DNA of 64,000 bases from Lysobacterales bacterium. GTDB taxonomy: Bacteria; Pseudomonadota; Gammaproteobacteria; Xanthomonadales; SZUA-5. Of the stretch, positions 57,916 to 61,190 are shown one piece after another. The notes below the pieces were generated by a model. The model saw only the letters and a program-made list of their open reading frames with translations, searched no databases and was not told where the DNA came from. Location: contig JALHMG010000015.1 in the NCBI GenBank assembly GCA_022844135.1, forward strand, positions 1-64,000. Reading direction: 5' to 3'. Both the position numbers and the translations under genes were made by a program. How positions within the stretch are numbered: the first letter of the stretch is position 1; every line of letters begins with the position of its first letter.

Positions 57916-60405
57916 ATGCCCGTTAACGTCGATCAGACCAGCGCCTACCCCAAGCCGCAAACTCTTCTGGAGGACTGGCCGCAGATCGCCAGCAGCGCTG
58001 ACTGGGAGCCGGGGCAGCAGCTAGGGCCGTATGTGCTCAAGCAGCGCCTCGGTAAGGGCGGCATGGGCGTGGTTTGGCTGGCCGAACAACTGTCGCCGCT
58101 GAAGCGTTATGTCGCCATCAAATTGATGCCGCACGAGCAGCGTTCGGCGATTGCCGAGGCCTATTTCGAAATCGAACGCCAGGCACTCGCGCAGTTATCC
58201 CATCGCGCCATCGCGCAGATCTACGATGCCGGCCGCCTGCCCGATGGTGCGCTGTTTTTTGCTATGGAGTATGTGCCGGGCACGCCGCTCGATCAGTACC
58301 AGCGCGAGCATCCGCTCAGGTACTCGCAACTTGCCAAACTATTCGTGCAGATCGCCTCAGGTGTGCAGCATGCGCACCAGCGGGGCTTGATCCACCGCGA
58401 TTTGAAGCCGCTGAACGTGCTGGTGCACGAGGCAGACGGCGAGGCGTTGCCGAAGATCATCGATTTCGGTATCGCCATGGGCTCGACGCCCGGCGCGGCG
58501 ATGAAGATCGACCAGACGCGTTCGGTAGGCACGCCCGCATATATGTCCCCCGAGCAAAAGCGCCCTAACGATCTTGGCATCGACGCGCGCACCGACATTT
58601 ACGCGCTCGGCATGATGCTCGCCGAAAGCCTGGCACGCTGCGGTGGGCTCAACACCGAAACCGGCGCCATCGACAGCACGGTCTTCGCCAACGCTGTGCA
58701 CAAACGCCTGGGGCGCGCCACCGAGCGCGGCATCGACTCGGGCTTCGTCGACAAGTCGCTGATGGCGGCGCCCAGAGAGTTGCTCGCCATTGCAGCCAAG
58801 GCGCTCGCGCCGGATCGCGATGCGCGATACGACAGCGCCTCTGGCTTCGCCGACGACCTCACCCGGTGGCTGCAGCGTCGACCCGTCGCGGCTTACAGCC
58901 AGTCGCACGGCTATGTCTTCGCCTGCCTGGTGCGTCGCAACCGTATCGCGACAGTTGCCATCACTTTGATCGCGTCCGCCATCCTTGGCGGCACATTGCT
59001 TGCGCTGCACGGCATGCGCCAGGCTCAAGTTGCGCAGGCGCTGGCCGAGCAACGCCGCAATGATGCGGAACGCTTGATTCAGTACATGCTTGGCGATTTT
59101 GCGGACAAGTTGCGGCCGATTGGTCGCTTGGAATTGCTGGATGGCGTGAGTAGTGAAGCGCTCAGCTACTTGAGCAACAACGCGCCGAGCGACGAACCCA
59201 GCGCGCTGATTCGCGCCCGCGCGCTGCGCACTCTGGGCGAAGTGCAAGCCACTCGACAGCAATTCGACGAAGCGGAGAAGACGCTTCAGCAGGCGGCGCT
59301 TTTGCTAGATCCCTGGAGGCTTACTCCGACCGATCCGGAAGTGCATTTCGAAGCCGGGAACATTTCTTTCTGGCTCGGCAATATCAGTTTCCGCCGCGCA
59401 GAGTTGGCGTCGACCGAGAGACACTGGAGGTCGTACCTCGACCAAGCACGTCAGTTCGCAATGCGCCACAGCGACGTGTCGCGCGGACAACTGGAAATTT
59501 CCTACGCGCTAAGCAATCTAGGCACACTGGCGGATCGCAGTGACGATCTTGGAAAGGCTATCGATTACTTCAGGCAATCACTGGACATTAAGCGCGGACT
59601 GGTGACCAATTCTGGCGATGCGAGGGTGCTGGATGTTGCCAGCTCGCTGGCCTGGATCGGGTCGATCAAACTTGAACTAGTCGACGTCTCTGGCGCGTGG
59701 GACGACACGGTCGAAGCGTTGGGACTCTTGGCTGGATTCGGCGACAAGGACCACGCTCTTCGGCGTCAGAAGGAGATCAACTTCCGGGTACTCCTGGCGA
59801 CACAAGCAATCGACCTCGGCATGTACCAAGTTGCATCGCAAGAACTCAAGAGAGCGCTGGTCTTGGCCGAGGCAGACGTTGCAGTGGATGCGACTCAGCC
59901 CAGGCGCAGAGCGATTCTTTTTCGCATCTCTCTTGAACAGGTTCGCAGCCTGCCGCCGGGCTCAAGGCAGGCTCGTTTGGAGTATCAGCGTGCAAAGGGA
60001 CGAATTTCTGACTATGGCACCCAAGGATTCAGCGAGACAGATCTCCAAGACCTTGATGCTCTAGACCTGGTAGCACAGTGGCACGCCCATGCGTCGTTGG
60101 GCGGCAACCCAATCGAATTGTTGAAGGCGTTCGCGGCAGCGCCGGAAATCAATTCGAGTCAGGTCGCTCGCGCGCTAGCGATAGCTTCGATCGCAATCCA
60201 ATCATCATCCGATGCCAAAGCTGTTGAGGTGCTCGTCGATGCGTTGGTCGCCAAGTTACCCGAGACACGACGCAAAAGCCTGCGATTTCAGATCGCAACA
60301 GCGGCATACTTGAACTCGATTCGATCGGAAGCCGCTTCGAAAGCTCTGATCGACATCGAAACGATCCGAACATCCTTTAAGCCTAAAACGGGGGCACAAT
60401 CGTGA
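57916..60405 (+). CDS. Membrane-anchored Hanks-type Ser/Thr kinase with TPR sensor domain
   Basis: The 829-residue protein has a kinase domain at about residues 35-315 with all key motifs: RLGKGGMGVVWLAEQ, YVAIKLMPHE, HRDLKPLNVLV, IIDFGIAMG and SVGTPAYMSPEQ. A membrane helix (ATVAITLIASAILGGTLLAL) lies at about 345-365. The remaining 460 residues are helical with TPR-like pairs (ALRTLGEVQATRQQFDEAEK, YALSNLGTLADRSDDLGKAI). The kinase would face the cytoplasm and the TPR part the periplasm. It overlaps by 4 bp a small protein gene. Substrate unknown. It is divergent from dapD. Confidence 0.92.
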   Translation: MPVNVDQTSAYPKPQTLLEDWPQIASSADWEPGQQLGPYVLKQRLGKGGMGVVWLAEQLSPLKRYVAIKLMPHEQRSAIAEAYFEIERQALAQLSHRAIAQIYDAGRLPDGALFFAMEYVPGTPLDQYQREHPLRYSQLAKLFVQIASGVQHAHQRGLIHRDLKPLNVLVHEADGEALPKIIDFGIAMGSTPGAAMKIDQTRSVGTPAYMSPEQKRPNDLGIDARTDIYALGMMLAESLARCGGLNTETGAIDSTVFANAVHKRLGRATERGIDSGFVDKSLMAAPRELLAIAAKALAPDRDARYDSASGFADDLTRWLQRRPVAAYSQSHGYVFACLVRRNRIATVAITLIASAILGGTLLALHGMRQAQVAQALAEQRRNDAERLIQYMLGDFADKLRPIGRLELLDGVSSEALSYLSNNAPSDEPSALIRARALRTLGEVQATRQQFDEAEKTLQQAALLLDPWRLTPTDPEVHFEAGNISFWLGNISFRRAELASTERHWRSYLDQARQFAMRHSDVSRGQLEISYALSNLGTLADRSDDLGKAIDYFRQSLDIKRGLVTNSGDARVLDVASSLAWIGSIKLELVDVSGAWDDTVEALGLLAGFGDKDHALRRQKEINFRVLLATQAIDLGMYQVASQELKRALVLAEADVAVDATQPRRRAILFRISLEQVRSLPPGSRQARLEYQRAKGRISDYGTQGFSETDLQDLDALDLVAQWHAHASLGGNPIELLKAFAAAPEINSSQVARALAIASIAIQSSSDAKAVEVLVDALVAKLPETRRKSLRFQIATAAYLNSIRSEAASKALIDIETIRTSFKPKTGAQS

Positions 60406-60749
60406 CGGTCAATGTATCTGTAACTATCACCGGTAGCTATCCCAACTACGTCGTTGCCTTTAGCGATGGCGGAACTGAGGTGGTTCCATACGGGCAGACT
60501 CAAATTATCAACTACACTTTTGCACCAGGAACCACTGGGTTTACATTCGATGGTGTTGACGATCTGACCAAGGATCCGTCGAAAAGCGAGGACTTTCTTA
60601 CTTATGGCCAGACGCCGTCACAGTTAACGGTCGAAGTCGTCAACTGCGATCCGCAGGAGACGCATTTCGACTATCGCGTAGGATTTCTGGATTCCCAAGG
60701 CCGAAAGTTCGACAGCGCCGATCCGGAAGTCATTTGCGAGCCAGAATAA
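60402..60749 (+). CDS. Small beta-rich acidic protein coupled to the kinase
   Basis: The 115-residue product starts at a GTG sharing GTGA with the kinase stop. It has no signal peptide or membrane helix and looks all-beta (VNVSVTITGSYPNYVVAFSD, TFAPGTTGFTFDGVDD, LTVEVVNCDPQE, HFDYRVGFLDSQGRKF) with an acidic end DPEVICEPE. I do not recognise the family. Tight coupling suggests a substrate, regulator or ligand of the kinase. The protein at 60930-61190 ends in a matching DPAVEFEPE. Confidence 0.7.
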   Translation: MTVNVSVTITGSYPNYVVAFSDGGTEVVPYGQTQIINYTFAPGTTGFTFDGVDDLTKDPSKSEDFLTYGQTPSQLTVEVVNCDPQETHFDYRVGFLDSQGRKFDSADPEVICEPE

Positions 60750-60800
60750 ATTCTGCGCCCGCTTGCTTAGCCAACCAGGTTGACGAATCTTGCGTATCGT

Positions 60801-60826
60801 CGATGGCGGTTCCTGGACCGCCATCG
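60801..60826 (+). terminator. Hairpin between the two small kinase-linked genes
   Basis: CGATGGCGGT (60801-60810) and ACCGCCATCG (60817-60826) form a perfect 10-bp stem with a TCCTGG loop. There is no U-run, so it may attenuate or process the transcript rather than end it. Confidence 0.45.
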
Positions 60827-60929
60827 GCGTTGTGGACGGTCCAGACGCTGTCGAATCGGTACGACAGCTGACCGTATTCCCGCCCGCAGTTGACCGCCGC
60901 CCGCCCTCGGTCCCCGATGCGGCTTATGT

Positions 60930-61190
60930 GTGCGGGTACGATCAGGCTCGTTACTCCCCATGAAGGCTGCCGGGACTTTTGAGGTTGATTCTCGATTTGT
61001 CATGCGACATCTCGAAATCATGGACGACGAACCGGGGCAAATCCTCAACGAATCAGTTCAGTCCACCAAAGCCGCCTTCACTGTGGCGAACTCGCAACCA
61101 TATGAGTTCTACTTCACGGTGGTTGTTGAGGATACGATCAGAGGAAAAATGATCGAATGCGACCCGGCGGTTGAGTTCGAGCCTGAGTAA
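60930..61190 (+). CDS. Second small acidic protein related to the kinase-linked protein
   Basis: The frame gives 86 residues from the GTG at 60930 or 76 from the ATG at 60960; neither has a good ribosome site, so the start is uncertain. The C-terminal 35 residues (YFTVVVEDTIRGKMIECDPAVEFEPE in pieces) line up with the end of the 115-residue protein: same spacing of aromatic-rich strand, D..G.K/RK, C or D, then DP.V..EPE. It is likely a shortened duplicate. No recognised domain; expression is uncertain. Confidence 0.5.
   Translation: MRVRSGSLLPMKAAGTFEVDSRFVMRHLEIMDDEPGQILNESVQSTKAAFTVANSQPYEFYFTVVVEDTIRGKMIECDPAVEFEPE

Follow-up and report, generated by a model that had tools for sequence, protein, structure and literature searches.

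A small predicted beta-sandwich protein related to SO1698 accompanies TPR modules with kinase, wHTH-nSTAND1 or TIR outputs

Analysis of a 64,000-nucleotide stretch of a Lysobacterales genome (contig JALHMG010000015.1; hereafter the window) together with related genomes indicated that a small protein, ORF1, encoded directly behind a TPR-containing Ser/Thr kinase, belongs to a group of proteins whose constant companion is the TPR module and not the kinase. On balance, we favor the reading that ORF1 partners, from the same operon, a TPR sensor anchored in the membrane, the output of which is interchangeable; it would be a ligand or cofactor, probably self-cleaving, that gates a kinase at this locus and a wHTH-nSTAND1 or TIR module elsewhere. 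The DP-EP family (PF08985, formerly DUF1888), of which ORF1 is a divergent relative, was already known, as was the member with a solved structure, SO1698 of Shewanella oneidensis (PDB 3n55 and 3njf-3njn); what appears to be new is the partnership with TPR sensors of interchangeable output, of which no description was found in a literature search of a limited open-access set. Nothing on the DP-EP family, SO1698 or MakD with PixA was returned from the same set, and DUF1888 appeared only in an unrelated paper.

Table 1. Features of the kinase-ORF1-ORF2 locus, in positions of the window
Feature	Position	Strand	Basis
Hanks-type Ser/Thr kinase, one TM helix and TPR superhelix (829 aa)	57916..60405	+	Pfam matches and motifs
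Single predicted TM helix, after RRNR	58945..59001	+	Hydropathy scan, 2.15 over 19 residues
TPR sensor module, common to wHTH-nSTAND1 and TIR proteins	59011..60402	+	Module search and AlphaFold2 model
ORF1, 115-aa beta-sandwich partner, divergent DP-EP/SO1698 relative	60402..60749	+	Pfam, profiles, predicted fold
D107-P108 codons of ORF1, aligned with D116-P117 bond of SO1698	60720..60725	+	Sequence and structure alignments
ORF2, C-terminal half of second family member, end ECDPAVEFEPE	60960..61190	+	Profile match; likely 5'-truncated
DP codons of ORF2	61161..61166	+	Reading frame

Inspection of the open reading frames confirmed the arrangement given in the original prediction, i.e., a TPR kinase of 829 residues overlapping a beta protein of 115 residues. 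Thus, the kinase gene starts with ATG at 57916 and stops at 60403-60405 while ORF1, which ends in DPEVICEPE, starts with GTG at 60402, and since this start and the kinase stop share 4 nt (GTGA), translation of ORF1 is probably coupled to that of the kinase. Pfam searches matched the longer protein to PF00069 (4.8e-36) and TPR_2 (3.9e-9), and the kinase active-site motifs HRDLKPLN and DFG were intact. The RR-rich flank preceding the TM helix suggests, by the positive-inside rule, that the kinase side is cytoplasmic and that the TPR side lies outside the cytoplasm, in the periplasm. The AlphaFold2 model of the TPR module was all helical (pLDDT 93.2), with peptide-binding TPR superhelices as its structural neighbours (LGN, Z 25.7; Rap/NprR pheromone receptors, Z 19-24), a likeness that must be read in light of the wide resemblance of TPR folds to one another. 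The locus is flanked by dapD/dapE-like and suf genes, and the order dapD-kinase-ORF1 is preserved in a congener (G001).

The association of small proteins with the TPR module was evident from a search for this module over 151 related genomes, which gave matches in 62 and 60 retrieved loci, 58 of them with enough sequence. The next ORF was small and carried DP-x-[IVLMA] near its end at 41 of these 58 TPR loci as opposed to 15 of 472 control stops (other ORFs of the same loci), in keeping with the predicted signalling module and its small, conserved partner; no such partner was present at 17 of the 58. The module N-terminal to TPR was a kinase or TIR domain or combined a Trans_reg_C wHTH with nSTAND1, and a partner was noted at 12 of 16 kinase, 17 of 18 wHTH-nSTAND1 and 13 of 24 TIR loci. 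Homologues therefore occur without kinases, a result that the original prediction had itself named as one that would refute it. The same counts bear on the suggestion of a kinase-substrate pair, in which the kinase would phosphorylate ORF1 as its output. The gene overlap, the richness of ORF1 in Ser/Thr and the intact active-site motifs agree with such a pair, but the same partners stand behind kinase-less STAND and TIR versions, so that its general form is refuted, and the closest relative of SO1698 sits behind a STAND protein. With TPR rather than the kinase as constant companion, a kinase-substrate pair is quite improbable for the present locus as well.

Pfam DP-EP searches across the order returned nothing above cut-off because the partners are too divergent, and it was the kinase- and TPR-guided neighbourhoods that revealed them. 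In a class-wide scan of 369 genomes, the sole DP-EP match above the Pfam cut-off lay 33 bp behind a wHTH-nSTAND1-TPR gene. Similarly, all eight of eight SO1698-like loci in a scan of named genomes (Shewanella, Rheinheimera, Alteromonas and one gammaproteobacterium) were behind a wHTH-nSTAND1-TPR gene, with approximately 0.9 kb of extra sequence between the two genes at L139. The closest SO1698 relative examined, that of S. oncorhynchi (91% identity), occupied the same position. Profile matches in two phylum-level genomes (G612 and G670; E 0.003-0.006) were near flagellar or other genes and, having no TPR partner, were taken as chance.

Other neighbours of these genes were also noted. At L131, L132, L134 and L139 (Shewanella/Rheinheimera), a gene for a PAS-/GGDEF-like protein lay 3' of, and in the same orientation as, the SO1698-type gene, which suggests a third conserved neighbour. 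TIR-TPR genes lacking a DP partner at L098, L099, L112 and L117 were directly followed by a gene for a large protein (approximately 580-667 aa) that begins G-V-T-G/S-H-R-[DN] and may be an alternative partner. At L118, where there is no DP partner, the TPR kinase gene overlapped an ECF sigma factor-like gene. A gene for a cysteine-rich CGEGKCGGD-repeat protein and the two genes after it (L120, 2462-4577), which adjoin a STAND-TPR gene, resembled a metal-linked peptide (bufferin-like) cluster.

The relationship of ORF1 to SO1698 was indicated by both profiles and predicted structure. PF08985 matched nearly all of ORF1 (E 0.011, 16.6 bits) and, again over almost the entire length, two orthologues within the genus and family (6e-4; 20.5 and 20.7 bits). 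These scores are below the Pfam cut-off of 25 bits, and ORF1 is therefore termed a divergent DP-EP relative rather than a Pfam member; the SO1698 relative, by comparison, scored 135 bits. The family, which the original prediction did not recognise, is thus not wholly unknown. No meaningful NCBIfam match was noted for ORF1 or ORF2, and phmmer with ORF1 alone against PDB gave only weak matches to unrelated proteins. A seven-member profile of the ORF1 family matched SO1698 chains in PDB (E 0.0022) with DP aligned on DP, and hhalign comparison of the kinase-linked subfamily with SO1698-like sequences (E 7.7e-7, probability 91.7) placed S105-A-D-P on S114-P-D-P. The AlphaFold2 model of ORF1, for which 25 relatives were supplied, was all-beta (pLDDT 92.6), and its top structural matches were the SO1698 entries (Z 12.1, rmsd 2.7 over 106 residues), the two sharing a beta-sandwich over the whole length. 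Profile and predicted fold thus place ORF1, a small beta-sandwich, in the DP-EP/SO1698 superfamily. ORF1 also shares the C-terminal S-x-D-P-x-[IV] tail of SO1698 and, like the closest relatives of that protein, is encoded directly behind a TPR signalling gene, but the upstream gene encodes a kinase here as opposed to wHTH-nSTAND1-TPR there. The next matches of the model were MakD of Vibrio cholerae (Z 9.1) and then PixA (Z 8.4) of the PixA/AidA inclusion body proteins (PF12306), which have the same beta-sandwich but only 4-10% sequence identity to ORF1 and a different gene context. To our knowledge, the function of both MakD and PixA/AidA is unsettled.

Whether SO1698 was cut or uncut was read from chain ends in the PDB entries. 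Chains of the wild type and of K98A, Y26F, P115A and Q118A aligned only to residue 116 whereas those of S114A, D116A, P117A and D37A extended to 123-124, a pattern that fits a cut after Asp116. The crystal paper reportedly describes self-cleavage, a Lys98-Asp116 link and retention of the C-terminal fragment. ORF1, at approximately 17% identity to SO1698, has an Asp-Pro near its C-terminus at the position of this cut site, with D107 and P108 as counterparts of D116 and P117 and with S105 opposite S114, a position that varies in the wider family. K98 is replaced by H88 and D37, in the sequence register, by T25, the latter at a position occupied by Asn in several close SO1698 relatives. When the ORF1 model was superimposed on SO1698, alignment stopped at residue 107, which lay opposite residue 116, the end of the wild-type chain. 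Most, although not all, cleavage-relevant residues are thus present, and ORF1 is, by analogy with SO1698, probably self-cleaving at D107-P108. Asp-Pro has been lost from some kinase partners (L081 and L086, PTEVRN). Together with L114, these partner-like small ORFs with a replaced Asp-Pro (PTEVRN, TPTIKNN) constitute natural variants that are predicted not to cut.

The tail may instead serve the fold, in which case ORF1 would be a structural or chaperone-like subunit and lend the TPR protein stability, with the DP tail as a closing strand and cleavage irrelevant. Tail residues 109-112 do form a strand in the predicted model, some members lack DP, and the fold is common to MakD and PixA; however, conservation is higher in the tail after DP than in the core, and crystals of SO1698 show its bond cut, so we consider this explanation a somewhat unlikely one. 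Among the best conserved columns were N112 and P114; conservation of DP and P+2 is partly selection bias, because members were picked by that motif, while that of N and P further along the tail is unbiased.

Partners varied with the output module. The residue after DP was E/D in 7 of 12 kinase, Q in 23 of 25 STAND and R in 8 of 12 TIR partners (Fisher p 1e-8 to 1e-5). As proof of recognition this signature was rejected since partner phylogeny also follows class: in 31 of 34 nearest-neighbour tests, a partner body was closest to another of its own output class. The signature may thus reflect ancestry alone. Identity of partners to ORF1 ranged from 10 to 57%. Such fast divergence, and the frequent presence of TIR, STAND and kinase domains in conflict systems (PMC8195603), would suit an immunity-type module in which these domains are anti-phage or conflict outputs, with the small protein acting as sensor or effector of the response. 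This interpretation is unlikely given that no PADLOC family matched ORF1, that the PADLOC matches of the kinase were generic kinase-domain ones, and that the locus lies between dapD/dapE-like and suf genes rather than in a defence island, with the dapD-kinase arrangement kept in the congener. Five TIR-type partners of one family, f8 (L090, L097, L107, L108 and L115), carried Sec-like signal peptides and should thus reach the side of the membrane predicted for TPR; most partners had no signal peptide although TPR is predicted to be outside.

Under the preferred reading of ORF1 as partner of a TPR sensor, the small protein would be made coupled to the sensor and fold, would then cut its own Asp107-Pro108 bond in the manner of SO1698, and the TPR superhelix would recognise the protein or its C-terminal strand or peptide, a recognition that would switch the kinase. 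Homology, fold, operon coupling and output interchange are observed parts of this scheme; self-cleavage is carried over from SO1698, and TPR binding and gating are putative steps. The scheme supplies a context for an orphan self-cleaving protein of solved structure, the relatives of which partner membrane TPR sensors with interchangeable outputs, and makes the purpose of SO1698-type cleavage directly testable. It also predicts that DP partners should be sought behind genes annotated as TPR kinases or TIR-TPR proteins.

The pairing recalls RRNPP receptors (Rap-Phr, NprR-NprX), in which a TPR superhelix protein of the kind matched by the TPR model is likewise encoded beside a small gene. In contrast with RRNPP receptors, the TPR protein here is membrane-bound with a kinase, STAND or TIR output, the product of the small gene is a predicted folded domain rather than a short exported pro-peptide, and the best matches of the TPR model (i.e., LGN) are eukaryotic. 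A bolder version, to which we give only a slim chance, would make the small protein a self-processing pro-signal, the Asp-Pro cut freeing or exposing a Pro-initiated peptide (PEVICEPE) for which the membrane TPR is the receptor with an exchangeable kinase, STAND-DNA-binding or TIR output. If true, Gram-negative bacteria would have a counterpart to RRNPP signalling in which the precursor is folded and autocatalytic.

The shorter relative, ORF2, said in the original prediction to follow ORF1 and to end in DPAVEFEPE, proved to be a real family member. A profile of 25 partners from which ORF2 had been left out scored it at 34.2 bits (E 1.4e-9 among 928 window frames) compared with 2.1 bits for the next unrelated window frame, and the similarity of ORF1 to ORF2 is therefore not due to chance. 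ORF2 has a gene-like codon-position GC (0.58/0.34/0.61), and candidate starts are an ATG at 60960 without an evident ribosome site and an in-frame GTG upstream at 60930. Its match was limited to profile positions 53-120, i.e., the C-terminal half; its body was closest to STAND-type partners, while its end was similar to DPAVVFEPE, the congener's kinase-type tail. No ORF2 was present in that congener, either downstream of the partner gene, where the sequence differs, or beside sufS. The term duplicated is thus imprecise: a second family member is present, but the missing N-terminal half, the STAND-like body and its absence from the congener argue against a recent copy of ORF1, and ORF2 is likely a truncated remnant that marks the junction of a rearrangement.
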